Shown: one piece after another, positions 3,536 to 31,248 of the stretch
Layout of the letters: each line of letters begins with the position of its first letter
How positions within the stretch are numbered: position 1 is the stretch's first letter
Assembly (NCBI RefSeq): GCF_006716095.1
Contig: NZ_VFOK01000001.1
Span: 1,395,375 to 1,459,374 of the forward strand
Direction of reading: 5' to 3'
From: Barrientosiimonas humi
GTDB taxonomy: Bacteria; Actinomycetota; Actinomycetes; Actinomycetales; Dermatophilaceae
Length of the DNA: 64,000 bases
Notes under the pieces: generated by a model
What the model saw: only the letters and a program-made list of their open reading frames with translations
The model's database searches: none
Told to the model about the DNA's origin: nothing
Translations under genes and position numbers: made by a program

Positions 3536-3584
3536 CGTTGAATCTCTTTCTGTGACAGCGTGATTGGTGTACGTATGGCGCAGG

Positions 3585-4838
3585 TCAGCGCGACCCGGCC
3601 GGGGAGCCCGCGGCCCGGCCCGATCGGCGAGCCAGGAGAGCGAGCACGCCGACCGGGATCAGCGTGAGCGCGACGAATGCGGCGCCGACCAGGGTGGGTC
3701 CGGTCAGCCCGAGCGGGGTCGCGATGACCGCCCCGGCAACCGCGGTGCCGATCGCGGTCCCGACGTTGAAGGCCGCGACGCTGAGCGCCGAACCGAGGGT
3801 CGCCGCGCGTCCCGCGAACCCGACGGCGAGGTGGATGAGCACGCTGTTGGCGCTGAGCCCGAACAGACCGAGCACCACCAGCAGGGCGACCGTGGCTCCG
3901 GTCGAGCCGGTGAGCAGCGCCATCGCGAGCAGGACGAGCGTGGTCACCGCGGGCGTCACGACCGTCACCAGGTGCGGGTGCGCGTCGCCGAGACGGCCGC
4001 CGACGATCGTGCCGACGAACGACCCGACGCCGAACCCGGTGAGGACGAGCGGCACGAGCGACGCGGACAGGCCCGCCCGCTCGACGAGCACCGGAGCGAC
4101 GAAGGAGTAGGCCGCCAGCACCCCGCCCGTGGTCGTCACGCACGCGGCGAGCACGAGCCACAGCCGCCCGGAGCGCAGGTCGACGAGCTCGGACAGCATC
4201 GTCGCCGACGGCGCGTGCGGCTCGTCGCGTGGGACGAGCCGCTCGACGAGGACCACGGCCAGCGCGGCCGCAGCCGCCAGCGCCCAGAAGGTGCCTCGCC
4301 ATCCGACCTGCTGAGCGACGTACGCCCCCAGGGGCACTCCGAGGACGGTCGCCAGCGAACCGCCCGCAGCGACGATCCCCACGGCGCGCGAGCCGAGCGC
4401 GGGTCCGGCGGCGCGGGAGGCCACGACGGCCGCGACCGCCCAGAAGGCGCCGGTGGCGAGGGCGGTGACGAACCGCGCCACGAGCAGGGCGGAGAGGCTC
4501 GAGCCCAGCGCGACGAAGACGTGCCCTGCGACGAAGACCACCAGCGCCAGGAGCAGCGTGAGCTTCTGCGAGATGCGCATCGTGGCCAGGGTCATCACCG
4601 GAGCCCCGATGATCATGCCGACCGCGAAGACGGTGATGAGCGAGCCGGCCTGGCCCCACGAGATGCCGAGGTCGCCGGCGATCTCGGGGAGGATCCCCGC
4701 GACGACGAACTCGGTGGTGAGCATGAGGAACGTGCCGAGCGCGAGCACGTGCACGACGAGCGGGAGGCGCCGGTCGGGCGTGGCCGCGTCGGGGGTGCGC
4801 GGGCCGCCGGCCGGGGCCAGGGTGGATGTGTCTGACAT
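3585..4838 (-). CDS. MFS transporter (DHA1/AraJ-like drug or sugar efflux)
   Basis: A 417-residue protein with about 12 hydrophobic segments, starting LPLVVHVLALGTFLMLTTEFVVAGILPEI. The TEFVVAGILP region is characteristic of the AraJ/YdhP-type DHA1 efflux group. Motif-A-like turns occur after helix 2 and at GTIVGGRLGD in the second half. A small Arg/Gly-rich cytoplasmic tail follows. It is probably a proton-driven exporter in the cytoplasmic membrane, substrate unknown. It shares a 141-bp divergent promoter region with the HTH regulator at 4980 and is followed by an alcohol dehydrogenase. Confidence 0.88.
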   Translation of the reverse strand: MSDTSTLAPAGGPRTPDAATPDRRLPLVVHVLALGTFLMLTTEFVVAGILPEIAGDLGISWGQAGSLITVFAVGMIIGAPVMTLATMRISQKLTLLLALVVFVAGHVFVALGSSLSALLVARFVTALATGAFWAVAAVVASRAAGPALGSRAVGIVAAGGSLATVLGVPLGAYVAQQVGWRGTFWALAAAAALAVVLVERLVPRDEPHAPSATMLSELVDLRSGRLWLVLAACVTTTGGVLAAYSFVAPVLVERAGLSASLVPLVLTGFGVGSFVGTIVGGRLGDAHPHLVTVVTPAVTTLVLLAMALLTGSTGATVALLVVLGLFGLSANSVLIHLAVGFAGRAATLGSALSVAAFNVGTAIGTAVAGAVIATPLGLTGPTLVGAAFVALTLIPVGVLALLARRSGRAAGSPAGSR

Positions 4839-20337: not shown

Positions 20338-21405
20338 TTAGTCGTTCTCCGTGACGGTGCGCGCCAGCCCCACGAGGCGACGCGCCTTCAGGGCAGTCTC
20401 CCACCACTCGCCCTCCGGGTCCGAGCCCCACGTGATGCCCGCGCCGGTGCCGAACCGCAGCCACCGCCGTCCCGCCCGGTCGTGCTCGGCCCAGAACGTG
20501 CGGATCCCTACGGCGAGTCGCGCCTCCCCCGCGTCGGCGTCGACCCAGCCGACGGCCCCGCAGTAGGGACCGCGCGGCACCGTCTCGAGGTCCCGGATCG
20601 CTGTGAGCGCAGTCGATTTCGGCGCGCCGGAGACCGAGCCGGGCGGGAAGGTGGCGGCGAGGATATCCGTCCAGGCGACGTCCGGGCGCAGCCTGCTGGT
20701 GACGGTCGAGACGAGGTGCACGAGGCCCGGGTGGTGCTCCAGCGCGCAGAGCCCGTCGACGGCCACCGTGCCCGGCTGCGCGACGTGTGACAGGTCGTTG
20801 CGCACCAGGTCGGTGATCATGACGTTCTCGGTGCGGTCCTTCGGCAGCAGCTCGTCGGCCGTCGGCGCGGTGCCCTTGATCGGCGCCGAGGTGAGCGTGT
20901 CGCCGACGCGCTCCAGGAAGAGCTCCGGCGAGGCGCACACCAGGTCGAGGCCGGCCTCGGGGATGTCGATGCGTGCGGCGTAGGGAGCCGGATTCCCTTG
21001 CCGCACAACCTGATCCAGCAGGTCCAGATCGGTCTCGGGAGCGATCTGCGTCGACAGCACCCGGCAGAGGTTGACCTGATAGACCTCGCCGGTCGAGATC
21101 CGGCGGCGGATCTCCTCCACGCCCGCGCGGTAGTCCGCCTCCGTCAGCGAGGACGTCCACGCCGCGGCCGGGTCGGCACCGTCCGGCCCGGACAGGTGGG
21201 GTTCGGGCAGGTGAGGCCCGGACAGGTGCGGGGCGGGGGTCACCTGCTCCCGACGTACGTCATCCATCCGGACGGCGGTCAGCTCGCCCTCGAAGGTGGC
21301 CACGACGACCCAGAACCCGCCGGCGTCGAGGCGCGCCGGGTCATGGGTGATCTCCGCGACGCCGCGGGCGCTGCGGTCCCCGAAGACCGCCCGCGCCCGA
21401 CTCAT
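20338..21405 (-). CDS. pabB: Aminodeoxychorismate synthase component I-like (chorismate-binding enzyme)
   Basis: A 355-residue chorismate-utilising enzyme, shorter than typical PabB/TrpE (~450) because most of the N-terminal half-domain is missing. Core motifs are intact: SLTEADYRAGVEEIRRRISTGEVYQVNLCR, AASPELFLERVGDTLTSAPIKGTAPT-like region (read here as CASPELFLERV), FPPGSVSGAPKSTALTAIRDLE and YCGAVGWVD. It sits directly upstream of pabC. No glutaminase (pabA) gene is visible nearby. Confidence 0.87.
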   Translation of the reverse strand: MSRARAVFGDRSARGVAEITHDPARLDAGGFWVVVATFEGELTAVRMDDVRREQVTPAPHLSGPHLPEPHLSGPDGADPAAAWTSSLTEADYRAGVEEIRRRISTGEVYQVNLCRVLSTQIAPETDLDLLDQVVRQGNPAPYAARIDIPEAGLDLVCASPELFLERVGDTLTSAPIKGTAPTADELLPKDRTENVMITDLVRNDLSHVAQPGTVAVDGLCALEHHPGLVHLVSTVTSRLRPDVAWTDILAATFPPGSVSGAPKSTALTAIRDLETVPRGPYCGAVGWVDADAGEARLAVGIRTFWAEHDRAGRRWLRFGTGAGITWGSDPEGEWWETALKARRLVGLARTVTEND

Positions 21406-21457: not shown

Positions 21458-21565
21458 CCCGGGAGGGGGCCGTCTCAGATCGTGCGAGGACGTACGAAAT
21501 GCAGAAGGGTCTCCGCGGAATCCCGGGAGGGGGCCGTCTCAGATCGTGCGAGAACGTACGAAATG
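21458..21565. repeat. 44-bp direct repeat pair beside the left attachment site
   Basis: Copies at 21458-21501 and 21522-21565 are identical except for one base, starting CCCGGGAGGGGGCCGTCTCA and ending CGTACGAAATG. They lie on the chromosome side, 15 bp outside the left att core. They occupy most of the gap between pabB and the element; no gene is seen here. Confidence 0.85.
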
Positions 21566-21579
21566 TGGCGCCGCTCAAC

Positions 21580-21658
21580 GCAAACGGCCCCTGATCCGCG
21601 TTTCCGCAGGTCAGGGGCCGTTCCGTGCTGGTGGGCGATACTGGGTTTGAACCAGTGA
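21580..21658. other. Left attachment site (attL core), displaced tRNA-Val 3' end
   Basis: Carries the T-arm, acceptor 3' strand, CCA and the 12-bp-stem terminator (21583-21594 with 21611-21622) of tRNA-Val(GAC), identical over 79 bp to 31125-31203. The 5' half of the tRNA is absent, so this is not a tRNA gene. The integrase gene begins 148 bp inside it. Confidence 0.9.
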
Positions 21659-21681
21659 ACACGGCGTGTCGCACCCCGACC

Positions 21682-21712
21682 TCTGACCTGCACCAACAGG
21701 CGTCTGACCTGC
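21682..21712. repeat. TCTGACCTGC direct repeats near attL
   Basis: Two exact copies at 21682-21691 and 21703-21712, 21 bp apart start to start, i.e. two helical turns, between the att core and int. Candidate arm-type binding sites for the integrase or excisionase. Confidence 0.45.
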
Positions 21713-21773
21713 TGATACGTGGCACAGTATCGCGGAACCGTGCGGAACGCAACGGAACGGAATACCATTCAGT

Positions 21774-21792
21774 TCTGGCACGGATCTGGCAC
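21774..21792. promoter_or_regulatory. 19-bp terminal sequence (left copy), candidate integrase arm site
   Basis: TCTGGCACGGATCTGGCAC holds two TCTGGCAC octamers 11 bp apart. The same 19 bases occur at 31105-31123, next to the right att core and nowhere else noticed in the element. The left copy ends 13 bp upstream of the int start codon, so binding there could also repress int. Confidence 0.5.
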
Positions 21793-21805
21793 GGGAAGGG
21801 ACACT

Positions 21806-22963
21806 GTGAAGCACACTGGGGGCGGCAACAGCCGCGGTCGACGAGCGACCTTCGGCAGCGTCCGCAAGCTGCCCTCGGGCCGCTGGCAGGCTCGCTACAC
21901 CGGCCCCGACGGCCGAGAGCACCGCGCGGAGCACACCTTCACCACCAAGACCGACGCGAACGCCTGGCTGGGCACCCGGTACGCCGACATCACTCGCGAT
22001 GACTGGAAGGCCGAACGACCGCGCCGCGAAGGCATCACGTTCGCCGAGTTCGTGAAGCCGTGGGTGGAGAATCGGCGGACCAAGGACGGAGAGCCGCTCA
22101 AGCCTCGCACCCGCGACCACTACAACCGCCTGCTCGAGCGGGTACTGCTTCCGGCGTTCGGCGACCTGCGCGTCACCGACATCACGGTCGAGCACGTCGA
22201 GCAGTGGCGCACCGACATGGGGGTCAAGACGCCCACTCTGCGAGCACACTCCTACAGCCTGCTGCAGACGATCCTGGCCGACGCCGTGCAGGCGCAACAC
22301 CTGAAAGCCAACCCCTGTGTGATCCAAGGAGCAGGCACCTCCCGCCGGCGCAAGAAGATCAAGCCGGCCACGCTCAGCGAGCTGGCAGCGATCGTTGAGC
22401 ACATGCCCGAGCGGCTACGCGCACTGGTCCTGGTCTGCGCCTGGTGCGCCCTTCGCTTCGGCGAGGCGACCGAGCTGCGCCGCGCAGACCTTGACCTCGA
22501 CACCGAGCGCAGACGCGGACTGATCCACGTCGAGCGCGGCGTGACCCGTGTCAGCGGCGAGTTCGTTGTCGGCGACCCGAAGAGTGACGCCGGCAAGCGC
22601 ACCGTGGCGGTGCCCCCACACCTCGTACCGCTGCTGCAGGACCACCTCGACCGACACGTGGGCCGCGGCAAGAACGCACTGCTGTTCCCCGCAGCCGACG
22701 GCAGGACGCACCTGCAGCCGAGCAGCCTCTACCGGTCCTACTACCCCGCCCGAGAGGCTGCCGGTCGGCCAGACCTGCGCTGGCACGACCTGCGGCATAC
22801 CGGGGCGGTCTTCGCAGCACAGACCGGGGCGACTCTGGCCGAGCTGATGGAGCGGCTGGGGCACGCCACCCCAGCGGCGGCGCTGCGCTACCAGCACAGC
22901 GCCGAGGGCCGAGACGCAAAGATTGCGGCCGCACTGTCGAAGATCGCGGAGGGCGAGAAGTGA
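21806..22963 (+). CDS. int: Tyrosine-type site-specific integrase
   Basis: A 385-residue phage integrase from GTG 21806, preceded by GGGAAGGGA at good spacing. It has an N-terminal arm-binding region (FGSVRKLPSGRWQARYTGPDG), a SAM-like core-binding domain (TFAEFVKPWVENRR, to about residue 160) and a catalytic domain with the full set: Arg in CALRFGEATELRR, Lys in GDPKSDAGKR, HxxR in WHDLRHTG, His in MERLGHATPAAALRYQHS, and the Tyr in LRYQHS. It recombines the 79-bp tRNA-Val core. The gene lies beside attL and transcribes into the element. Confidence 0.95.
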   Translation: MKHTGGGNSRGRRATFGSVRKLPSGRWQARYTGPDGREHRAEHTFTTKTDANAWLGTRYADITRDDWKAERPRREGITFAEFVKPWVENRRTKDGEPLKPRTRDHYNRLLERVLLPAFGDLRVTDITVEHVEQWRTDMGVKTPTLRAHSYSLLQTILADAVQAQHLKANPCVIQGAGTSRRRKKIKPATLSELAAIVEHMPERLRALVLVCAWCALRFGEATELRRADLDLDTERRRGLIHVERGVTRVSGEFVVGDPKSDAGKRTVAVPPHLVPLLQDHLDRHVGRGKNALLFPAADGRTHLQPSSLYRSYYPAREAAGRPDLRWHDLRHTGAVFAAQTGATLAELMERLGHATPAAALRYQHSAEGRDAKIAAALSKIAEGEK

Positions 22964-23388
22964 GCGACTACCCAGATCGGTGGCGCGACACCCCGCCACC
23001 GAGCGGCCACTCAACAGCCCGGAACCTGGACGGGTCGCGGCCCAGGATTCGAAACTCCTTCCACGCCAGCAAGTGGTCGCGCAAGACGCGGAGCCTCGAA
23101 CTGCTGTGCCACCGCCCTGGCCACCAGCGACCATCCCTCGTTGCCCTCGTCGTGGCACCCCAGGAACGACCTTCGCGCCGCTGGGTATCCGTGAACTCTG
23201 TCAGCGGCACGGTCTGGGCGTCTGACGACTTCATCGCGAGCTGCCGCTGCGGCTTCGACTATTCGGTCTCTGGGGCGCTCTTGGTGGAGGCACTGCGCAA
23301 TCGGCCGGAGACGGGACGCCAGAGCGGCAAGGTGCCCAGCATGGACATCGCCCGCGTGTCTGTTCCGGAAGCGTCGGCCAAGGGGTAG
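22960..23388 (+). CDS. Hypothetical protein, overlaps int
   Basis: A 142-codon frame whose GTG overlaps the int stop (GTGA). I do not recognise it. The N-terminal half is Arg/Ser/His-rich. The second half has a more protein-like stretch (VSVNSVSGTVWASDDFIASCRCGFDYSVSGALLVEALRNR) with a CxC. Translational coupling supports expression, but GC-rich shadow coding cannot be ruled out. Confidence 0.5.
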   Translation: MSDYPDRWRDTPPPSGHSTARNLDGSRPRIRNSFHASKWSRKTRSLELLCHRPGHQRPSLVALVVAPQERPSRRWVSVNSVSGTVWASDDFIASCRCGFDYSVSGALLVEALRNRPETGRQSGKVPSMDIARVSVPEASAKG

Positions 23389-23505
23389 TACGCTGCGTGC
23401 ACCAAGTTGATAGTCACTTGTCCTGTCGCGTGAGAGCGAGCCCGACGCGGGGTTAAGCGTCAAAGCCTGAGGACTGGCTGAGACCCGAGAAGGGGATCGC
23501 TGGTC

Positions 23506-23823
23506 ATGCCTCAATCGATTTCTCGTCGTTGGCTCACCCAGGCTGAGGCTGCTGAGCAGCTGGGGGTCACCGACCGTACGATCCGCAAGTTCATCGCGAC
23601 CGGTCGACTCACCGGTTACAGGCTCGGCGCGAGAGCGGTTCGCGTCGACGCTGGCGAGCTCGAGACCCTGCTCTCCCCCATTCCCACCGGCGGTTCATCA
23701 CCGCCGCCAGGGCGGTCACCCGCAGCTGGTGGCAAGAGCACCAGCCGGCGCCGACCGAATCGAACCGAGCCGCCCGAGAGGGCACCGCGTAGCGGCGGAG
23801 CTGTCGGCGGTGACGCGGCGTGA
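23506..23823 (+). CDS. Excisionase/MerR-like helix-turn-helix DNA-binding protein
   Basis: A 105-residue protein preceded by AGAAGGGG. Residues ~8-58 (RWLTQAEAAEQLGVTDRTIRKFIATGRLTGYRLGARAVRVDAGELETLL) are a textbook excisionase-family winged HTH, where the second helix TDRTIRKFIATG reads DNA and RLTGYRLG is the wing. A Pro/Ser/Arg-rich tail follows. In integrative elements such proteins direct excision by the integrase and/or repress early genes. It heads a run of five genes whose ends overlap. Confidence 0.85.
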   Translation: MPQSISRRWLTQAEAAEQLGVTDRTIRKFIATGRLTGYRLGARAVRVDAGELETLLSPIPTGGSSPPPGRSPAAGGKSTSRRRPNRTEPPERAPRSGGAVGGDAA

Positions 23824-24149
23824 GGGCAAACGAGCGCCGCCCCGGCGTGGGAACCGAGGCGGCAGAGCACGTTTCAGCAGGCGACTTCAACGGCGCTTCA
23901 ACTATCCCACAGACCACCGACAACAGGGCTGAGCGCCGCGCGGGGCTGATCGAACTCTCTCGACGTCGAGACTTCGCCGTGCGGTGCTGGACCGAGCGCG
24001 CCGACGGTGCGCTGGTCGAGCAACTGTTCGTGAACCTCGACTCTGCCGCCAAGAAGGCGGACCGCGCGCGGGCTCGAGGCCTGGCGGCCCGGCTCGAGCT
24101 GGTGCGCGTCGTACCCGTACAGCCGCTTGACGGCGGTGATCTGCGATGA
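23820..24149 (+). CDS. Hypothetical protein of the element's early block
   Basis: A 109-residue protein from a GTG that overlaps the preceding stop (GTGA), with a stop overlapping the next ATG (ATGA). The N-terminal third is unremarkable. From ~40 on it has DNRAERRAGLIELSRRRDFAVRCWTERADGALVEQLFVNLDSAAKKADRARARGL, with a helix of Lys/Arg/Ala spacing. Unrecognised; the overlaps on both sides argue it is translated. Confidence 0.65.
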   Translation: MRANERRPGVGTEAAEHVSAGDFNGASTIPQTTDNRAERRAGLIELSRRRDFAVRCWTERADGALVEQLFVNLDSAAKKADRARARGLAARLELVRVVPVQPLDGGDLR

Positions 24150-24829
24150 GCGCAAACACCGAGTCCGTCGTGGGCTGGAGGTTCGATCTCATCACGGGCG
24201 CGGGTTGGGTAACGAACCCCACCACCGACGACCCCAGGCCGGAGATGAACATTCACGAGGTTGCCTGGTACTACCGGGCACGGGCGATCTGCCCCCGGAG
24301 TGATCACCGCCCTCCGCACCCTGGGTGCTACTGCGGATACCACGCCGTGACCGACCTCGCTGCGCTGGGCGGGTGGGACTTCCTCGCGGATGCGGAGCGT
24401 CACATCCGGACGCGACGGCGCTGGGATGTCGCGCTGGCCGTGACGCGAGTCCGGCTGGTTGGAGACATTCTTCCCGGCGCCGACCCGCGCGACCCGGAGA
24501 CTACGGTGCGAGGTCACCGTCTGCAGGTGCTGGGCCCCGTGCTGACTCACGGCTCGGCGAACCTGGTGCGCCTGTGGCACTGCAACCTGGGCCTCGAGGT
24601 CCGCCAGGTCCGCAACGTCGTGGAGACATGCCGCCGGCGGGCTGGCGAGCCGGATGGCTGGTGGCGCGACTACGACACGTGGGACCACGTGCGGAGCTGC
24701 TCGCGCCCGGAGCACGTCTTCCATCACGAGGTCGTGCCGGGCTGGAACGTTCTCCTGTGTCCGGAGTGCAACGGTCAGCTCGTCGAGAATGAGGAGTACC
24801 GTCGGCGGCTGCTGGGTGACGACCGATGA
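24146..24829 (+). CDS. Hypothetical protein with a Cys/His-rich CxCGYxA motif
   Basis: A 227-residue protein overlapping both neighbours (ATGA at each end). Residues ~50-72 (ICPRSDHRPPHPGCYCGYHAVTDL) match a C-x-H-x-P-x-C-x-CG-x-x-A pattern common in uncharacterised actinobacterial and phage proteins. The following DVALAVTRVRLVGDILPG is part of the same fold in those proteins. A second Cys pair near the end (LLCPECNGQLVENEEYRR) looks like a zinc knuckle. Probably a metal-binding protein; function unknown. Confidence 0.68.
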   Translation: MSANTESVVGWRFDLITGAGWVTNPTTDDPRPEMNIHEVAWYYRARAICPRSDHRPPHPGCYCGYHAVTDLAALGGWDFLADAERHIRTRRRWDVALAVTRVRLVGDILPGADPRDPETTVRGHRLQVLGPVLTHGSANLVRLWHCNLGLEVRQVRNVVETCRRRAGEPDGWWRDYDTWDHVRSCSRPEHVFHHEVVPGWNVLLCPECNGQLVENEEYRRRLLGDDR

Positions 24830-25149
24830 GCGCACCCCTGATTACCCATCTGGGTAGTGACGCCCCGGTCGACCTCGCGGCTCTGTCCGAGGACGCCTGG
24901 CGGCTCTGGCTCGACGGGCACGCCTGCGGCTACGCGGCCGGCCTCGAGCGGGGCCGCCAGCTACAGGACGCCGAGCTCGGTGCGCTGCAGCGTGCTGCGG
25001 CCGCGGTCGTGCACGCGGCCGCGCAGCTGCCGGACCGCGGCCACGAGCTGAGCGTCGAGGCGGCTGCCCGTCGCGAGGCCGCGGGCGTCGCAGCGTTCCG
25101 GGCCGACCATGCTCGTCGGCGCGGGCAGGCGGGTGGTGCCCATGCTTGA
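24826..25149 (+). CDS. Small helical hypothetical protein
   Basis: A 107-residue, Ala-rich, mostly helical protein (ALSEDAWRLWLDGHACGYAAGLERGRQLQDAELGALQRAAAAV). It starts in an ATGA overlap with the upstream gene and overlaps the start of the ATPase gene by 8 bp. Not recognised. Its coupling to the ATPase gene hints at a partner role in replication of the element. Confidence 0.65.
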   Translation: MSAPLITHLGSDAPVDLAALSEDAWRLWLDGHACGYAAGLERGRQLQDAELGALQRAAAAVVHAAAQLPDRGHELSVEAAARREAAGVAAFRADHARRRGQAGGAHA

Positions 25150-26536
25150 GCACTACGACGGCCCGGTGCCGCCGCCGGACGCGCCGGCCAACCTGGCCGA
25201 GGTGCACGAGGTGTTCCGCAAGTGGCTGGGCCAGGACTACGACACCGACGCGCTCGACGCGGTGCTCGCGGTCTGCGCGGTCGAGCGGATGAGCGGCGAC
25301 CCGTTGTGGCTGCTCCTGGTCAGCGGCTCCGGCAACGCGAAAACCGAGACGGTGCAGGCGCTCTCGGGCGCCGGCGCGCTACCGATCAGCACCATCAGCG
25401 GTGAGGCCGGGCTGCTGTCCGCGACCCCGAAGAAGGACCGCACCGAGGGCGCGACCGGAGGGCTGTTGCGCGAGATCGGCTCCTCCGGCGTGCTCGTCGT
25501 CAAGGACATGACCTCGATCCTGAGCATGAACCGGGACCGCCGGGACGAGGTGCTCGGTGCCCTGCGCGAGGTCTACGACGGCGCGTGGTCCCGCCCGGTC
25601 GGAGCCGACGGTGGGCGGCGGCTCACCTGGTCCGGGCGAATCGGCCTGGCCGGCGCGGTCACGACCGCCTGGGACAGTGCGCACGCCGTCATCGCCCGGT
25701 GCGGTGACCGGTTCGTGCTGGTCCGGGTCGACAGTCACCAGGGACGGCAGGCCGCTGGGCGACAGGCGATCCGCAACACCGGCAGCGAGGAGCAGATGCG
25801 CGGCGAGCTGGCTGAGGCGGTGACCGCGGTGATCACCCAGCTCGACCCGGACGTGCCACCAGCGACCGAGGCCGAGATCGAGGTGCTGCTCGCCGCCGCG
25901 GACCTGGTGACGCTGGCCCGGACCGCGGTCGAGTACGACTACCGCGGTGACGTGGTGAACGCGCACGCCCCGGAGGCACCGACCCGGTTCGCCAAGCAGC
26001 TCGGGCAGGTGATGCGCGGCGCTGCCGCGCTGGGCCTGGACCGGGCGGCCGCGCTCGCGCTGGCGATCCGTTGCGCCCGGGACTCGATGCCGCCGCTGCG
26101 GCTCGCGATCGTCGACGACCTCGCCGAGCACCCCGACTCCACCACGGCCGAGGTGCGCAAGCGGCTGGCCAAGCCGCGCGCGACCGTCGACCGGCAGCTG
26201 CAGGCGTTGCACATGCTCGGCGTGCTCGCCTGCGACGAGGAGGAGATCGAGTGGGCCGGGAAGCCGGCGACGAGGTGGCACTACCGGCTCGCCGAAGGCA
26301 TCGACCCGTCGGCCCTACAGATCAGTGCCAGAAATGACCAACCAAGCACACGTGCACACCAAGAAGAGGAGAGGGAGACCCCTCGCCCAGGTTTGGACGT
26401 TCTTGGCACTGATTCGACCGGCACGTGCGGTCTCTGCTCCCGCCCCATCACCGGCCCCAAGGCCGCCCCGTTCGAACCGGCCTGCCTCGGATGCGGCCGG
26501 CCAGCCAGCGCCGACCGAGAGGAAGCAACCCCATGA
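25142..26536 (+). CDS. ATPase (AAA-type/helicase-like) fused to a winged helix and zinc ribbon
   Basis: A 464-residue protein from ATG 25142. A Walker A-like GSGNAKTE lies at residues 62-69, a Walker B-like VLVVKDM at ~117-123, and a sensor-like IGLAGAVTTAWD plus FVLVRVD follow, as in helicase/primase-associated ATPases. Around residues 330-375 a winged helix is seen (STTAEVRKRLAKPRATVDRQLQALHMLGVL). The C-terminus has two CxxC knuckles (CGLCSRP, CLGCGRP). It is the best candidate for the element's replication initiator/helicase. Annotation pipelines may call it only a 'helix-turn-helix protein'. Biochemical role is inference. Confidence 0.7.
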   Translation: MLEHYDGPVPPPDAPANLAEVHEVFRKWLGQDYDTDALDAVLAVCAVERMSGDPLWLLLVSGSGNAKTETVQALSGAGALPISTISGEAGLLSATPKKDRTEGATGGLLREIGSSGVLVVKDMTSILSMNRDRRDEVLGALREVYDGAWSRPVGADGGRRLTWSGRIGLAGAVTTAWDSAHAVIARCGDRFVLVRVDSHQGRQAAGRQAIRNTGSEEQMRGELAEAVTAVITQLDPDVPPATEAEIEVLLAAADLVTLARTAVEYDYRGDVVNAHAPEAPTRFAKQLGQVMRGAAALGLDRAAALALAIRCARDSMPPLRLAIVDDLAEHPDSTTAEVRKRLAKPRATVDRQLQALHMLGVLACDEEEIEWAGKPATRWHYRLAEGIDPSALQISARNDQPSTRAHQEEERETPRPGLDVLGTDSTGTCGLCSRPITGPKAAPFEPACLGCGRPASADREEATP

Positions 26537-26949
26537 CCGACGACACCAAGCACTGCCCCCGCTGCGGCGGGGAATGGCTGTGGTCCTTCACGTTCCAGCA
26601 CCGGCTGAGCTGCCCGCTGCTGGCCGAGGAGGACGTCACGAAGGTGGCCGACTCGACCAAGCTGCGCGCACGCTCCGGGTTCGCCCGGCACGCCACAGCG
26701 GCCGAGCTCGAGCTCGCAGCCGTCTGGGAGCCGGCCGCGGCCCTGGCGCTCGACGGGTCGACTCAGACCAGCGCCGAGACCACGGTGCGCGGCACCCCTG
26801 CGGTGGTGTTCCGCGTCGTGGTGTTCGAGGCGACGGGCATCACCTACACCGTCGACCCGCGCCGTGACCCACCGGTCACGACCGGCGACGCACCCGAACC
26901 GTTCGGCCCACCTCGACACACCGACTGGAACGACCAGTACGGGTTCTGA
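26533..26949 (+). CDS. Zinc-ribbon hypothetical protein
   Basis: A 138-residue protein starting in an ATGA overlap with the ATPase gene. It opens MTDDTKHCPRCGGEWLW, then HRLSCPLL, giving a probable zinc knuckle of three Cys and His. The rest (VVFEATGITYTVDPRRDPP) is a small beta-rich domain. Not recognised. The last gene of the overlapping early block. Confidence 0.65.
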   Translation: MTDDTKHCPRCGGEWLWSFTFQHRLSCPLLAEEDVTKVADSTKLRARSGFARHATAAELELAAVWEPAAALALDGSTQTSAETTVRGTPAVVFRVVVFEATGITYTVDPRRDPPVTTGDAPEPFGPPRHTDWNDQYGF

Positions 26950-26961
26950 AGGAGATTCACC

Positions 26962-27552
26962 ATGACCGACAGCACGAGCACCACTACCGAAACTCCAGAG
27001 GTCGACCTGGAACCCCGCGCCGACCTCATTGGGCAATCGCCCAATGAGACGCCCGAGACCAACGACGGGAACGACCTGGCCGAAGCATCGGGCACGCCCG
27101 TGCTCGACGACCCGCAGACCGCCGAGGAGGCCCTGACCGACACGCGCCTCGCGAAGGTCCGCAACGAGGCCAAGGGTCTGCGGGAACGGCTGCGCGCCAC
27201 CGAGACCGAGGCGCAGGCACTGCGCGAGCAGATCGGGGCGATGCGCCAGGCCGAGGTCGTGCGCGCCGCGACCGAGCACGGCATGGCCGACGGCCTCGAC
27301 CTGTTCCGCACCGACGGCGACCCGCTCGACCTCGACAGCCTGTACGGCGACGACGGTGCGCTTGACCGCGAACGGTTGCTCAAGACGGTCAACGCGACGC
27401 TGGAGAAGCACCCCCACTGGCAGCGGCAGCAGGCAAGACCCGGACGCAAGCAGCCGCTCACCAACCTGCGCTCTGGCGCGTCGGATACCGATATCGGTCA
27501 GGGGCCCCGCCCGATGACGTGGCAAGACGCGCTGCAGGGCCGGCGAAGCTGA
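26962..27552 (+). CDS. Phage scaffold-like protein
   Basis: A 196-residue, strongly acidic protein with a near-ideal ribosome site (GAAGGAGA, 7 bp spacing). The N-terminus (to ~60) is Thr/Glu/Asp-rich and looks disordered. Residues ~62-95 are a coiled coil (RLAKVRNEAKGLRERLRATETEAQALREQIGAMRQ). A basic C-terminus (HWQRQQARPGRKQPL) could bind the capsid interior. Position directly before the major capsid gene and this architecture match scaffolding proteins of HK97-type phages. There is no protease motif. Confidence 0.72.
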   Translation: MTDSTSTTTETPEVDLEPRADLIGQSPNETPETNDGNDLAEASGTPVLDDPQTAEEALTDTRLAKVRNEAKGLRERLRATETEAQALREQIGAMRQAEVVRAATEHGMADGLDLFRTDGDPLDLDSLYGDDGALDRERLLKTVNATLEKHPHWQRQQARPGRKQPLTNLRSGASDTDIGQGPRPMTWQDALQGRRS

Positions 27553-27568
27553 CACCCCGAGGGGGTAT

Positions 27569-27621
27569 CCTCACTGGTGAGAGCGGCCCCGGCCCGGAGC
27601 CACCCGCTCTCACCAGTGAGG
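27569..27621. repeat. Perfect 18-bp inverted repeat between scaffold and capsid genes
   Basis: Arms 27569-27586 (CCTCACTGGTGAGAGCGG) and 27604-27621 are exact reverse complements with a GC-rich 17-base loop. It lies in the 157-bp gap between scaffold and capsid genes. There is no U-run, so a strong intrinsic terminator is uncertain. It could tune the capsid-to-scaffold ratio by attenuation or RNA processing. Confidence 0.75.
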
Positions 27622-27709
27622 CCCGGGAGGCCGACACCGCGGACGACGTGCCAGGAGCCGTGCTCCGCACCCACCAGATTCCGCCTGCCTCCCGAAGGAG
27701 CCCAGCATC

Positions 27710-28549
27710 ATGCTGACCACCAGCAACGCCAACGCGATCGTCCCCGACACCCGGGGCCAGCTACTCATCCAGTCCGTCGCCGAGAAGTCCATCGCGGCCC
27801 AGGTCGCCACCGTCGTCAACATCGCCACCCACGACTTCCGCCTCCCCCGGGTCACCAAGGACCCCACCGCCGCATGGACGGCCGAGGGCGAGGAGATCGT
27901 GCCCAGCGACATGACCATCGACGAGGTGGCCTCCACCCCGAGCAAGGTCGCCGGCCTGTCCATCATCACCCGGGAGCTGGCCAACGACTCCAGCCCCGCC
28001 GCCACCGAGGCGATCGGCCAGGGCCTCGCCCGCGAGATCGCCCGCCAGGTCGACCGGGCCTTCTTCGGAGATCTGCCCGCGCCGGCACCCAAGGGCCTGT
28101 ACTCCGTGGCAGGGAAGTCCACCGTCGCGACCAGCAGCGGCTACACCAACATCGACCCGTTCATCGAGGCGCTGACCATGGCCGAGGTCGTCGGCGCGAA
28201 GCTCACAGCGTTCGTCACCAGCCCGCTGACCGCTCTCGCGCTGGCCAAGCTGAAGAAGGGCACCAGCTCCAACGAGCCGCTGCTCGCAGCCGACCCGTCA
28301 GTTCCGACCGGGCGCGTGATCCAGGGTGTCCCGCTGTTCGTGACCCCGTTCATCGAGGACGGTTCCGTTTGGGGTATCCCGAAGGACCACGCGTTCCTGC
28401 TGATCCGCGAGAACGCCAAGATCGAGACCGACGGCAGCGTCTTCTTCACCAGCGATCGCGTCGCGGTCAAGGGCACCATGCGCGTCGGCACCCTGTTCCC
28501 GCACGAGGCGGCCATCGTGCACGTCCCGGCCGCGCAGCCCGCGGGCTGA
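27710..28549 (+). CDS. HK97-fold phage major capsid protein
   Basis: A 279-residue protein with GAAGGAG upstream of ATG 27710. It follows the HK97/T7-like short capsid pattern: IPDTRGQLLIQ-like N-arm (read as IVPDTRGQLLIQSV), LPRVTKDPTAAWTAEGEEIVPSDMTIDEV (E-loop region), KVAGLSIITRELANDS, GLAREIARQVDRAFFGD (spine helix), AFVTSPLTALALAKLK and GVPLFVTPFIEDGSVWGIPKDHAFLLIREN. It has no N-terminal delta/protease domain, consistent with a separate scaffold gene. It would form the shell of a virus-like particle. No portal, terminase or tail genes are in the element. Confidence 0.85.
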   Translation: MLTTSNANAIVPDTRGQLLIQSVAEKSIAAQVATVVNIATHDFRLPRVTKDPTAAWTAEGEEIVPSDMTIDEVASTPSKVAGLSIITRELANDSSPAATEAIGQGLAREIARQVDRAFFGDLPAPAPKGLYSVAGKSTVATSSGYTNIDPFIEALTMAEVVGAKLTAFVTSPLTALALAKLKKGTSSNEPLLAADPSVPTGRVIQGVPLFVTPFIEDGSVWGIPKDHAFLLIRENAKIETDGSVFFTSDRVAVKGTMRVGTLFPHEAAIVHVPAAQPAG

Positions 28550-28557
28550 CCCACGAA

Positions 28558-28584
28558 CAGCCTGCAGGCTGACGACCTGCAGGT
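28558..28584. repeat. Paired palindromes just after the capsid gene
   Basis: CAGCCTGCAGGCTG (28558-28571) and ACCTGCAGGT (28575-28584) are perfect palindromes sharing the CCTGCAGG core, 9 bp after the capsid stop codon. Confidence 0.6.
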
Positions 28585-28626
28585 GCGCTGAGCATCGGCG
28601 TTTGACCTTTCCGCCGGACCCAGCGC

Positions 28627-28676
28627 CGAGCGGCCCTTCCCCCGGATGAGTCTCCCTGGGGGGAGGGCCCAGCTCG
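28627..28676 (+). terminator. Probable hairpin terminator of the capsid transcript
   Basis: A long GC-rich stem: CGAGCGGCCCTTCCCCC pairs with GGGGGGAGGGCCCAGCTCG with one or two mismatches and a ~15-base loop. No U-run. It lies in the 274-bp non-coding stretch between the capsid gene and the next ORF, in which no gene is seen. Confidence 0.5.
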
Positions 28677-28823
28677 ACCCGGCCCAACCACCTCCGGCAC
28701 AGGGCCGCTTGCACACACAGAGCTTCTGAGAGCCGACGTCCGCCGGGGTCGCGCCAGGGCGAAAAAACTCTCAGGGATAGAGCCGGCCCTATGCCGGAGG
28801 TTGCCGGCCGTCCAGGTCCGGGG

Positions 28824-29057
28824 TCACCCCCCAGGGGTTCCGTTGCGCTTCGCGATCTTCGTGTACTCCGAGGCTGAGACGCGGGCGACCTCAATCCTGG
28901 ACCAGTCGCCGCCGCTGGTGAGGTCGTACTGGATGACGACGATCTCATCACCGTCATGCTCGACGTCGAAGCGCCGGTACTCATCGGCCGCCTCGAACCG
29001 CAGGTCTTCGCCGCCGGGGACAGCGATGAGCACGACCTGACTCGATCCGGTTCTCAT
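28824..29057 (-). CDS. Small hypothetical protein of the element
   Basis: A 77-residue frame from ATG 29057 (MRTGSSQVVLIAVPGGEDLRFEAADEYRRFD). It is a compact alpha/beta-like sequence, acidic in the middle (VEHDGDEIVVIQYDLTSGGDWSRIEVARVS). Not recognised. It is divergent from the 107-residue gene at 29086 with only 28 bp between starts. Confidence 0.5.
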   Translation of the reverse strand: MRTGSSQVVLIAVPGGEDLRFEAADEYRRFDVEHDGDEIVVIQYDLTSGGDWSRIEVARVSASEYTKIAKRNGTPGG

Positions 29058-29085
29058 GGTCGCCCAGCCTCGCATAGCCTGCGGC

Positions 29086-29409
29086 ATGAGCGACGCACAG
29101 AGACACAGAAATGCACTGCACCGCGCGGTGGCGCTAACGACGAGCTACCTGCGTGAGGAGGGCGCGGAACAGGGGCCCCTCGAGACGATCAGGCTGGCAA
29201 ATGAGGAGACGGTCGACAGCGCCGCTGACACGCTGACCGCACAGGCACATCTCATGTCCCGACTGTTGAAGCACATCGTGAATCTCGATCGAGTCATGCG
29301 AGACGAGGGCATCGAGGTCGACCACGGCTTCGATGGGCCAGTGACGTCGCAGGCGATGCTGCAGGAAATCGCGCGGCAGATCATCCAGAGCGAGGCCGAA
29401 GACGGCTGA
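29086..29409 (+). CDS. Small helical hypothetical protein of the element
   Basis: A 107-residue protein from ATG 29086 (MSDAQRHRNALHRAVALTTSYLREEG). It is largely helical and acidic (SAADTLTAQAHLMSRLLKHIVNLDRVMRDEGIEVDHG). No motif recognised. It is less GC-skewed at third positions than the chromosome's housekeeping genes, as usual for mobile-element genes. Confidence 0.6.
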   Translation: MSDAQRHRNALHRAVALTTSYLREEGAEQGPLETIRLANEETVDSAADTLTAQAHLMSRLLKHIVNLDRVMRDEGIEVDHGFDGPVTSQAMLQEIARQIIQSEAEDG

Positions 29410-29439
29410 GCCCGCGCCAGCCAGCACGCGAGCCTGGCG

Positions 29440-29634
29440 CTAGCCGCCGCCTTGCTTGCGTCGGTGCTCGGCGATGTGGCCACGGACCAGCCACCAGACG
29501 CCGCCGGCCAGGGCGACAGCCGTGCCGACGTAGAACAGGGCCTGTCCCTGGGTGTCCCGGCCGAGCAGGAGCGCGATCACCATCACCGCGGCCCCGAGCA
29601 GCATCATCTCGACCGGGGAGCCGAGTCGCTTCAT
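29440..29634 (-). CDS. Small two-helix membrane protein
   Basis: Sixty-four residues with two hydrophobic helices (MMLLGAAVMVIALLLG, ALFYVGTAVALAGGVWWLV) joined by a short polar turn, and a basic tail (HRRKQGGG). Size and topology are holin-like, but many small membrane proteins look alike and no endolysin gene is present. Function not assigned. Confidence 0.55.
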   Translation of the reverse strand: MKRLGSPVEMMLLGAAVMVIALLLGRDTQGQALFYVGTAVALAGGVWWLVRGHIAEHRRKQGGG

Positions 29635-29706
29635 GGCGGCACGCTACGCGCTCGCCGTCACTCAATGGCGGAATCCGGCATTCAGCCCTTCCCCGTCGAG
29701 CAAGGT

Positions 29707-30006
29707 GAGCAAAGTTGCTCTCCTGCAGGTGAGTCATATGACTCACCACCTCTCCCTGCGCGCGGGGTCCTCACTTCCCAAGATCATTGGAATCGATCGA
29801 TCCGTACCACCTCTCCCTGCGCGCGGGGTCCTCACGATCTGAGGACCCTTCGGCAGGCGGGTCTCAGCATTCCTGAGACCGCTTGGAATGTCGGGCAGCC
29901 CGGCCACCGTGGTGGTGACCGGGCGGTAGTGGAGGGTCCTCCACTACCGCCCGGTATTCAGGGATCCCGTAATACCGGATCTGGTAGTTCAGGATCGCGG
30001 ACTACC
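29707..30006. other. Non-coding array of inverted repeats in the element
   Basis: The ~367-bp gap 29635-30001 holds no gene but a chain of inverted repeats: 29707-29720 (6-bp stem), 29728-29747 (perfect 20-bp palindrome), 29826-29848 (9-bp stem, 5-base loop), 29860-29880 (8 bp), 29899-29923 (10 bp, one mismatch), 29918-29955 (perfect 18-bp arms, 2-base loop), 29951-29978 (8 bp around GGGATCCC) and 29983-30006 (6 bp, at the end of the minus-strand genes). Several share bases, so alternative folds compete. Candidates: replication origin, packaging site or structured RNA. Confidence 0.75.
29745..29835. repeat. CRISPR-like repeat pair: two identical 30-bp repeats, 31-bp spacer
   Basis: Exact copies at 29745-29774 and 29806-29835, separated by 31 bp of unique sequence, a 61-bp period. 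Each starts ACCACCTCTCCCTGCGCGCG and ends GGGTCCTCAC and contains a CCCTG-CGCG-CGGGG hairpin, reminiscent of type I-E CRISPR repeats (about 28-29 bp repeat, 32-33 bp spacer). There are no cas genes in the window. It could equally be two protein-binding iterons. Confidence 0.5.
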
Positions 30007-30577
30007 CCTGTGACTCGAGCTCGCGCCTGGGGTACCAACCGAAGGCGCTCTCGACGACCCACGCGGCCTTGGTCAGGCAGTGCGCGAGCTGTCGGGCCTC
30101 GTCAGGCTGCAGCGTGACGTCGGCCCGGGTGTCGTGCATCGCCTCGTTCTCGAGGTCGAGCACGACGACGGTGCGGCCGTGGTCCAGGCCGCAGCTGACG
30201 TGCTCGTCGTGGCGCACCGTGACCTCGGCCCGCACGTCGTCCAGGTCGGGGCGCAGCACGAAGTCGGAGCCGCGGTGCTCGATGTAGCGACGATCAGCCT
30301 CCGGGGCGCACTCCGGGCCGAGGCGGCACCACGTGGGGTGGTGGTCGGCCTGGTGGACGTGCGGGCCACGGTCACGGCCCGCCGGCACCACCGGATACTC
30401 GACCGGCCGGTGCGGCAACAGGTCGCTGGGGATGCCGAACAGGTTCCCGTCGACCATCGTCAGGTCGCAGACGGCTCGCCACACCTTGGCGTCGTGGTCC
30501 AGCACCTCTATGCGGCCCTCGTGGGTGATCCGGTAGGTGTGCCCGTCCTTGGAGCACCATGACCTGGGGTTGCTCAT
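30002..30577 (-). CDS. DUF6907-like hypothetical protein
   Basis: A 191-residue protein whose ATG overlaps the upstream gene's stop (ATGA). It has Cys/His pairs (RSWCSKDGHTYRI; HHPTWCRLGPEC) and a C-terminal TLQPDEARQLAHCLTKAAWVVESAFGW. The last segment matches the L-x-P-x-EAR-x-LA-x-x-L-x-x-AA tail of the DUF6907 group, as in its neighbour. The two look like diverged paralogs. Actinobacterial genomes and phages carry many such proteins; function unknown. Confidence 0.65.
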   Translation of the reverse strand: MSNPRSWCSKDGHTYRITHEGRIEVLDHDAKVWRAVCDLTMVDGNLFGIPSDLLPHRPVEYPVVPAGRDRGPHVHQADHHPTWCRLGPECAPEADRRYIEHRGSDFVLRPDLDDVRAEVTVRHDEHVSCGLDHGRTVVVLDLENEAMHDTRADVTLQPDEARQLAHCLTKAAWVVESAFGWYPRRELESQG

Positions 30578-31083
30578 CGGGCCACCTCCGGCTGCTGACC
30601 GCTCTCCAACGACTCGGCGGCCCGCAGCAGCGCCCCGGCGAGCGTCCGCGCCTCCGCGGCCGTCAGCTCCTGTACGTCGCCGCCGACCACAGTCAGGGTC
30701 GGGGCGACGCCGGTGGTCTCACCGGCGGGCCAGGTCGCCTCGCAGAGCCAGATCTCGGTCTCCTGGTCCTTGTCGAGCACGCCGTGGTGCACGACCTGCC
30801 CCTCCATGTCGCGCAGGTCCGCGACGTGCTGCTCGTGCGGCGTCGTGCACCAGCCGGGGCAGACGAACCTCGGCGGGTACGCCCGCACGCGGCCGTCGTG
30901 CGAATCCAACAGATCCGACGGATCTGTTGGATTCATCGGCCAGACCTCGGTACTGGCCTCCGGGCAGATATCCGAGTGCTGCTCGGTCAGGTCGCCGGCC
31001 TCGACGTAGCGCGCTGGTTCGGTCTTCCAGCCGCACGTCGCGCAGCTGCCGACGTACAGGGTCGGGGGGTGGGTGGTGGTCAT
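30574..31083 (-). CDS. DUF6907-like hypothetical protein
   Basis: A 169-residue protein from ATG 31083 (MTTTHPPTLYVGSCATCGWKTEPARYVEAGDLTEQHSDICPEA). An N-terminal CxxC...H...C zinc-binding segment precedes the DUF6907 pattern PRFVCPGWCTTPHEQHVADLRDMEGQVVHHG, a beta-strand region and ELTAAEARTLAGALLRAAESLESG. It contains a perfect 33-bp inverted repeat within the coding sequence (30902-30934). First gene of a two-gene operon reading inward from the right end. Confidence 0.7.
   Translation of the reverse strand: MTTTHPPTLYVGSCATCGWKTEPARYVEAGDLTEQHSDICPEASTEVWPMNPTDPSDLLDSHDGRVRAYPPRFVCPGWCTTPHEQHVADLRDMEGQVVHHGVLDKDQETEIWLCEATWPAGETTGVAPTLTVVGGDVQELTAAEARTLAGALLRAAESLESGQQPEVAR
30902..30934. 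repeat. Perfect 15-bp inverted repeat inside a DUF6907-like gene
   Basis: Arms 30902-30916 (GAATCCAACAGATCC) and 30920-30934 with a GAC loop. The stretch is AT-richer than its surroundings and encodes NPTDPSDLLDS. It lies between two Cys-rich segments of the protein and could be an insertion. Confidence 0.8.
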
Positions 31084-31104
31084 GGCGTGCCTTTCGGAAT
31101 CCGA

Positions 31105-31123
31105 TCTGGCACGGATCTGGCAC
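31105..31123. promoter_or_regulatory. 19-bp terminal sequence (right copy), candidate integrase arm site
   Basis: Identical to 21774-21792 and in the same orientation, ending one base before the right att core. Two TCTGGCAC octamers 11 bp apart. It also lies ~20 bp upstream of the start of the minus-strand DUF6907-like operon. Confidence 0.5.
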
Positions 31124-31124
31124 A

Positions 31125-31203
31125 GCAAACGGCCCCTGATCCGCGTTTCCGCAGGTCAGGGGCCGTTCCGTGCTGGTGGGCGATACTGGGTTTGAACCAG
31201 TGA
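31125..31203. other. Right attachment site (attR core) within tRNA-Val(GAC)
   Basis: Identical over 79 bp to 21580-21658. It covers the terminator, CCA, acceptor 3' strand and T-arm of the intact tRNA-Val(GAC). The core therefore restores both the tRNA 3' end and its terminator after integration. Confidence 0.9.
31128..31167 (-). terminator. Terminator of tRNA-Val(GAC), inside the att core
   Basis: 12-bp stem AACGGCCCCTGA (31128-31139) with 31156-31167 and a 16-base loop, 7 bp beyond the tRNA 3' end on the minus strand. The same hairpin is duplicated at 21583-21622 in attL. Confidence 0.75.
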
Positions 31204-31248
31204 CCTCTTCCGTGTCAAGGAAGCGCGCTACCACTGCGCCAATCGCCC
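31174..31248 (-). tRNA. tRNA-Val(GAC)
   Basis: 75 nt with encoded CCA. Acceptor GGGCGAT/ATCGCCC, D-arm TGGCGCAGTGGTAGCGC, anticodon stem CTTCC/GGAAG around TTGACAC (anticodon GAC), T-arm CTGGTTCAAACCCAG. It is the attachment gene for the integrated element; its 3' 30 nt belong to the duplicated att core. Confidence 0.96.

Follow-up and report, generated by a model that had tools for sequence, protein, structure and literature searches.

The window, by which we mean the whole 64,000-nt stretch of Barrientosiimonas humi analysed here (GCF_006716095.1, NZ_VFOK01000001.1, 1,395,375-1,459,374, forward strand), carries at 21580-31203 a compact element integrated at a tRNA-Val gene, with its own integrase and its own HK97-type major capsid protein (MCP). 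The initial annotation had seen there an integrated satellite-like element with a capsid gene but without a phage genome, and the analysis bears this out. The borders, the target and the genes that carry the argument are listed below, where att stands for attachment site, aa for amino acids and ORF for open reading frame, E2 is a second element of the same genome, and handles beginning with L and G are ours for loci and genomes.

20338..21405, minus strand: pabB-like host gene flanking the element; an ORF that adjoins tRNA-Val in two relatives with an empty site, and presumably pabB, a name taken from its sequence without a family search
21580..21658, no strand: attL-like site, 79-bp copy with a truncated tRNA-Val 3' end; exact repeat, only two full copies in the genome
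21719..22963, plus strand: tyrosine integrase, 414 aa; Pfam Phage_integrase 8.7e-14, phrog_1 2.3e-64, 50% identical to the E2 integrase
23506..23823, plus strand: excisionase or AlpA-like helix-turn-helix (HTH) protein; Pfam HTH_17 1.3e-7, phrog_66 excisionase 5.6e-8
25109..26536, plus strand: replication helicase with a C-terminal winged helix, matching a primase-helicase in its helicase half only; 64% identity with the C-terminal half of the L174 primase-polymerase (Prim-Pol) protein over 383 aa
26962..27552, plus strand: scaffold-like protein with an acidic N-terminus, a long helix and a conserved C-terminal tail; family alignment, AlphaFold helix 51-105
27710..28549, plus strand: HK97-type MCP, 279 aa, no delta domain; PF05065 3.2e-26, TIGR01554 3.6e-28, AlphaFold and Foldseek
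31125..31203, no strand: attR-like site, 79-bp copy inside the intact tRNA-Val and the downstream hairpin; exact repeat, ARAGORN
31174..31248, minus strand: tRNA-Val(GAC), the integration target, left intact by the insertion; ARAGORN

The integrase-to-capsid set had been put at about 14 genes, and a recount also gives about 14. The two copies of the 79-bp direct repeat are identical at 79/79 bases, as first annotated, and their starts are 9,545 bp apart, which is the unit length used here (21580-31203 includes both repeats). Derivation from tRNA-Val(GAC) holds for only part of the repeat: 30 bp are the 3' end of the tRNA and the other 49 bp, including a hairpin, lie directly downstream. The tRNA is whole at the right copy, and a truncated 3' end is left at the left copy. 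The 3.65-Mb genome has only these two full copies, besides two further matches of 31-32 bp at 87-88%. A match to the 49-bp downstream part (E<=0.01, 28-49 bp, 76-95% identity) lies directly beside tRNA-Val in 13 of 29 loci from relatives, which argues that the 79-bp core is host-derived. The G+C content of the block is near that of the flanking DNA. Just outside the element, between pabB and the left att site, there is also a 44-bp direct repeat (98%) with a 64-bp period, at 21458-21501 and 21522-21565.

The empty tRNA-Val sites that the initial annotation proposed to look for in related genomes do occur. The tRNA-Val/tRNA-Gly query has a match in all 58 genomes searched (own included), 30 loci were taken, 29 of them from other genomes, and the empty-site comparison covers genomes of the same family. 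Specifically, in G010 (locus L024) and G009 (L026) a pabB homologue (61% and 53% identical, respectively) lies 90-91 bp from tRNA-Val with nothing between them, and it is these two genes that the element parts in B. humi. A third genome, G004 (L028), has a pabC homologue (71%) 77 bp from tRNA-Val, and L035 has a weaker pabB match (38%) elsewhere in the locus. G009 and G010 do not have the 49-bp segment downstream of tRNA-Val. No integrase relative was found in the 29 tRNA-Val loci (tblastn, 1e-4); G010 has one outside its tRNA-Val locus, 46% identical. Both marks of an integrated satellite, att repeats at tRNA-Val and an empty site in relatives, are present.

Capsid module and missing phage genes

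The MCP is predicted to have no delta domain because its Pfam capsid and phrog_10 matches begin at residues 10 and 3. Its AlphaFold model (predicted local distance difference test, pLDDT, 87.4; predicted template modelling score, pTM, 0.84) matches HK97-fold capsids in Foldseek with a best E of 6.4e-17, the template modelling score for HK97 Head II being 0.73/0.78, and the capsids of SaPI1 and of EcCI2 (9gyi), a capsid-forming phage-inducible chromosomal island (cf-PICI), are listed too. The scaffold-like family was aligned from 17 members, which have a conserved tail and, in the model of the window member, a long helix at residues 51-105; six of the 17 match phrog_4708, a head scaffolding family (best 4.5e-10).

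The pairing of these two genes can be followed over 72 MCP rows, 59 of them short and 13 long with an N-terminal extension. A scaffold-like neighbour accompanies 42 of the short MCPs, a protease one, and neither 16; the long MCPs have a protease in eight cases, a scaffold in one and neither in four. Seventeen of these loci went into the scaffold model, and two of the three protease queries were taken from rows counted here, so that matches of that origin are built in. Flank length also varies between loci, and some of the misses are places where the locus ends. L083, the only short row with a protease, starts at a contig edge; L009, the only long row with a scaffold, has a nearly identical short counterpart, L016, in its own genome.

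In a quick tree of the MCPs, with midpoint root and with support from the Shimodaira-Hasegawa-like approximate likelihood ratio test (SH-aLRT) only, 36 rows fall on one side of a branch with SH-aLRT 98. These are short MCPs that lack a delta domain, most of them with a scaffold-like gene as neighbour, and there is no long MCP among them. The group includes the MCPs of the window, E2, G042, L052, L054, L055, L058, L072, L074 and two Mycolicibacterium records, and it holds nine of the ten att-bounded MCPs. The next group consists of six long MCPs and two others, and the fork that joins it has weak support (71). Capsids of phages other than those of Mycolicibacterium make up eight of the 20 matches listed out of 49 and are 24-29% identical; in three of these eight phage records the MCP measures about 400-430 aa, and one of the three has a head maturation protease annotated. 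A short MCP without delta domain, a separate scaffold and no protease together imply, as far as gene content can tell, that the predicted shell is of the scaffold type rather than the protease type.

The rest of a phage head was then sought in the proteins of nine att-bounded elements. Their genes were predicted by a script (121 proteins), which misses the window excisionase and the L052 scaffold and adds some false genes. In full, the Pfam matches at 1e-4 comprise 21 families: capsid and integrase with nine members each, and others such as HTH, WhiB, and primase and helicase domains. Portal, terminase, protease and tail families are absent from this list; the PHROG scan agrees as far as its best 25 of 67 families show. 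Seventeen reference proteins (four portals, 11 large terminases including two of one gene, and two tape-measure pieces), each of which recovers its own source, have no match at 1e-3 in 29 sources including the window. No head maturation protease was found in the window element by phmmer with three protease-position proteins. The model of the small terminase matches four of 18 elements (L060 and, from within the model itself, those of G042, L074 and L069) and does not match the window element. Typical portals and large terminases are larger than 227 aa, so the longest unassigned ORF of the window gene set, at 227 aa, is too short for either.

Missing phage genes immediately outside the element would have been a sign of a larger prophage, as the initial annotation pointed out. 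None turned up in the window, where no portal, large terminase or tape-measure reference has a match, and the whole genome, window included, contains no PF04860 portal, PF05133 (SPP1-type) portal, phrog_9 large terminase or PF10145 tape measure; on these searches we therefore reject adjoining phage genes. There is one weak phrog_2 match (8.3e-6) far outside the window, from a family that also matches in 11 of 14 control genomes. Among the hosts of the relatives, PF04860 was found in 2 of 20 genomes, SPP1-type portals in 4 of 8 and phrog_9 in 7 of 16.

Relatives and the remaining genes

A scan of a species-genome collection with the capsid alignment gave 22 loci in 14 named genera, all of which we take to be actinobacterial, and one metagenome-assembled Actinomycetota genome; IMG/VR yielded 61 loci, for the most part distant. 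When 394 genomes were sampled evenly across the class, a capsid match at E<=1e-20 turned up in 23, own genome included. We examined 25 sources (the window, L020, L021 and L052-L073), several of which stop at contig edges. A window-like integrase is present in 13 and a scaffold-like protein in 17 (three of these in the model), and 10 of the 25 have an exact repeat at a tRNA or no more than 60 bp from it (the L055 repeat starts 37 bp past the tRNA). The closest capsid (58%) is on the metagenomic contig L074, in a unit of 9,053 bp at the same tRNA-Val(gac) with a 26-bp repeat; like E2, this unit is built on the plan of the window element. Taking nine of the ten exact-repeat sources together with L074, and leaving out the broken 4.7-kb L071, ten att-bounded units measure 7,355-10,912 bp (mean 9,019, standard deviation 1,060) and sit at eight tRNA types; at 18 bp, the L058 repeat is short and could have arisen by chance.

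Several of the relatives deserve a remark of their own. The capsid gene lies in two frames in L071 (Blastococcus) and L073 (Geodermatophilus), probably decayed elements. In two Mycobacterium capsid relatives, L053 83-4389 and L063 1002-5789, a tRNA-Val(gac)-Cys-Gly array follows a few kb after the end and may be the same target; the other att site is hidden by contig ends. The 13.5-kb viral contig L075 has related capsid genes at 2967-3812 and 12061-12900, about 9 kb apart and with similar gene sets, apparently tandem satellites. G034, of the same family, has near-identical, more distant capsid genes with scaffold-like neighbours at C1 351182-352000 and 971513-972346 (L170, L158).

The second element of the B. 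humi genome, E2 (L020 5184-13967; C1 2699183-2707966), lies in tRNA-Thr(tgt) and has a 31-bp att repeat (90% identical, 24 exact bases) with copies 8,753 bp apart. Its capsid gene (C1:2704764-2705585) is about 50-51% identical to the window MCP, and these two satellite capsids are the only matches to Phage_capsid (PF05065) in the whole genome. Common to the two elements are also the integrase (50%), two small proteins (65% and 72%), the scaffold-like protein (34%) and the DUF6907 protein (67%). The replication protein of E2, however, is a D5-type primase that is not homologous to the window helicase, which suggests that replication modules have been swapped while capsid and integrase genes are held in common.

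The window helicase (475 aa) has only weak HTH matches in Pfam and no match in phage records. The Prim-Pol protein with which it shares 64% identity over 383 aa, in the C-terminal half, is 729 aa long and belongs to L174, an element with a prohead protease, a 464-aa capsid protein and a serine recombinase. From this gene set we take L174 to be a phiRv1-type element, used here as a stand-in for phiRv1 and phiRv2. The replication module thus ties the window element to phiRv1-type islands, and the capsid module, with its differing genes, does not.

The other genes of the element are as follows.

23820..24149, plus strand: small conserved protein, no function assigned; 65% identical to an E2 protein
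24146..24829, plus strand: 227-aa protein, the longest unassigned ORF of the set; no Pfam or NCBIfam family, marginal PHROG match (E 0.086)
24826..25149, plus strand: small conserved protein, no function assigned; 72% identical to an E2 protein
26533..26949, plus strand: zinc-ribbon-like protein adjoining the capsid module, labelled from its cysteine pattern without a family match; similar to an L074 protein (1.7e-8) and an E2 protein (1.2e-4)
28824..29087, minus strand: small protein; ORF, no PHROG or PADLOC family
29056..29409, plus strand: 117-aa protein; ORF, no Pfam, PHROG, NCBIfam or PADLOC family
29440..29634, minus strand: small membrane-like protein; ORF, no PADLOC family, hydrophobic stretch seen in the sequence
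30002..30577, minus strand: 191-aa protein common to E2; 74% identity over 73-76 aa
30574..31128, minus strand: DUF6907 protein common to E2; Pfam DUF6907 1.6e-7, 67% identical

The E2 homologue of the 30002-30577 gene matches in part and may be truncated. Homologues of the excisionase-like protein occur in E2, L061, L062, L066 and L074. PADLOC finds no defence family in ten proteins of the element except for a marginal HTH match (Csa3, 8e-4). A scan for promoters and terminators gave 0 promoter-like sites and 5 terminator-like sites against 2.9 expected, and is not used in our reading. A packaging site conserved between the two elements of the genome was also considered, but the best short match, 46 bp at 29432-29476, overlaps a small ORF and proves nothing.

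Interpretation and known systems

The reading we prefer, at a probability of roughly 0.65, is that the element is an integrative phage satellite which makes a small shell for itself and takes portal, terminase and tail from a helper. On infection by a suitable phage, or on induction of one, it would excise at the 79-bp core and replicate by its own helicase. Its own MCP and scaffold would assemble a small shell with room for about 9.5 kb, while the portal, the packaging motor and the tail would come from the helper, and a small-headed phage particle would carry the element to a new cell. The helper is probably not resident in the B. humi genome and may come from outside. Judged by the genes, the hallmark of this widespread actinobacterial family is a shell of its own, predicted to be of the scaffold type, without recognisable portal, protease or motor.

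A number of observations weigh against this reading. The window scaffold-like protein matches no scaffolding family, finds nothing by tblastn among 50,697 phage records, and its model has no match in the PDB. The helicase comes without a primase half, no packaging site or small terminase was recognised in the window element, and no helper prophage is detectable in the own genome by six families (PF05065, PF04860, phrog_2, phrog_9, PF05133 and PF10145). The Dietzia element L070 is att-bounded, yet its MCP, on a long branch, falls outside the 36-row group, and so do 13 other scaffold-flanked MCP rows, so that scaffold and capsid clade do not coincide. Multimers of the element may be packaged in full-size helper heads. 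The data show the element, its target, the empty site and the family; excision, particles, helper, shell size and transfer are steps that we infer.

A different use of the capsid gene is known from SaPIbov5, where, according to the available part of PMC8569155, the capsid-protein homologue Ccm occupies the pentamers. A satellite MCP that co-assembles with the helper MCP and forces small capsids in this manner would have that precedent, and an element without portal or motor needs the start of assembly from its helper in any case. We nevertheless consider such redirection unlikely here, though it deserves weight. The same source text gives Ccm a delta domain (which is removed), makes it the only satellite protein in the small capsids and states that it does not form capsids alone, whereas the window MCP is predicted to have no delta domain and has a scaffold-like protein of its own. 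Mimicry of one helper's MCP also fits poorly because no close full-phage MCP is among the matches listed, the eight records from outside Mycolicibacterium reaching the 24-29% given above. What we find is therefore apparently not the SaPIbov5 type of capsid homologue, with delta domain and similar to that of the helper. It is quite improbable that the element is instead a full head maker like the cf-PICIs, with portal and terminase too divergent to recognise: two Mycolicibacterium relatives do list a terminase, an adaptor and a stopper, so further head genes occur in the family, but the 121 proteins of nine elements contain no portal, large terminase or protease family and no unassigned ORF of the window gene set reaches the size of a portal or large terminase.

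The capsid, integrase and excisionase are phage genes, and the capsid genes in two frames in L071 and L073 could be read as decay, as expected if the element were the remainder of a full phage reduced by deletion. This is very improbable for compact elements of narrow size range that carry the same core genes in open frames in different hosts and at eight tRNA types, and we rejected a full prophage remnant as the principal explanation because same-core compact elements recur at many tRNA sites. Finally, the HK97 fold is common to encapsulins, one of which appears at Foldseek rank 40, and the capsid gene might serve to build an encapsulin-like compartment or a decoy harmful to incoming phages. 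Such a role outside transmission is barely credible: the gene stands beside an integrase, att sites and a scaffold-like gene, its best structural matches are phage capsids, PADLOC gives only the marginal Csa3 match, and Mycolicibacterium records with this capsid were deposited as soil phage genomes.

The satellite reading can be carried further, though tentatively and with some doubt, to an old actinobacterial lineage whose scaffold-type HK97 shell, of triangulation number T=3 at most and holding genomes of 7.4-10.9 kb, would be smaller than imaged tailed-phage capsids and would accept the portal and motor of unrelated helpers. A single lineage is less sure because the att-bounded L070 MCP lies outside the main group. 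As for size, the accessible text of PMC7762592 (2020) predicts small capsids, a class not imaged according to that paper, and notes that satellite P4 (11.6 kb) uses a T=4 shell, larger than its genome size predicts. Well-studied satellites remodel the shell of the helper or, in the cf-PICIs, carry a whole head module, whereas this family has only MCP and scaffold, the two proteins expected to set shell size, in a set that recurs across many actinobacterial genera and at different tRNA genes. If the reading is correct, the shell of a satellite has to take in a foreign portal, a point of relevance to portal-capsid recognition, and the family offers a handle for finding helpers in actinobacteria.

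The phiRv1/phiRv2 elements, to which the initial annotation likened the element, resemble it in part. Both are small and have a capsid gene, and the helicase is common to the window and L174, but L174 combines a prohead protease, a 464-aa capsid and a serine recombinase where the window has a 279-aa MCP, a separate scaffold-like protein and no protease that we could find. We take the prohead protease and long capsid to be the defining feature of phiRv1/phiRv2, and the window element does not have it.

The likeness to capsid-forming islands does not extend to membership. The cf-PICIs also encode an HK97-type capsid, and the window MCP model resembles that of EcCI2; however, as described in the portions of PMC10690885 available, they encode protease, portal, connectors and both terminase subunits, and by its predicted genes the window element is not a cf-PICI, as portal, protease and large and small terminase were not found in it. 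The same portions mention Streptomyces satellites with head modules. Like SaPIbov5, the element has a capsid-protein homologue without a full head module, but a dedicated scaffold is not part of the SaPIbov5 system as the available text of PMC8569155 presents it. P4-like satellites use the capsid protein of the helper and have no MCP of their own (PMC10690885 and PMC7762592, in the parts available), and the window element, with its own MCP, is not of that class.

The 12 Mycolicibacterium records OR387110-OR387121 (10.9-11.1 kb), with capsids 33-35% identical, are the closest deposited phages among the matches listed. Two of them, M. aichiense OR387110 and OR387121 (L018 and L019), have a homologous scaffold-like gene just upstream of a capsid in the same MCP group as that of the window, but differ in having a serine integrase, a terminase resembling the small subunit, an adaptor, a stopper and a 651-aa protein annotated as tape measure. 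These two, deposited as soil phage genomes, list no portal and one small terminase gene only, and we found no paper on the records. On this gene content the deposited M. aichiense 'complete phage genomes' OR387110-OR387121 are probably satellites themselves.

In the titles and abstract openings searched, beyond which lay most subscription papers and all bioRxiv-only preprints, we did not find the capsid-plus-scaffold family described outside Mycobacterium. Actinobacterial elements under 15 kb are suspected to include satellites in the accessible part of PMC10023795. The view of the initial annotation that such elements are little described outside Mycobacterium and the classic PICI hosts needs qualifying, since Mycobacterium candidate PICIs with integrase and capsid, some with a scaffold, are reported in PMC10654092. 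There, tyrosine-integrase examples lie in tRNA genes, some candidates have a helicase, terminase or scaffold, and phiRv1/phiRv2 are counted among them. These candidates are defined by two genes, integrase and MCP, and come from Mycobacteriaceae only, and we set them beside the present family by description. The window element likewise has an integrase and an MCP in a short island without a phage genome, the broad definition of a PICI-like satellite in that text. Capsid-bearing candidate PICIs are thus already known in Mycobacterium, and the window element is a variant of that kind.

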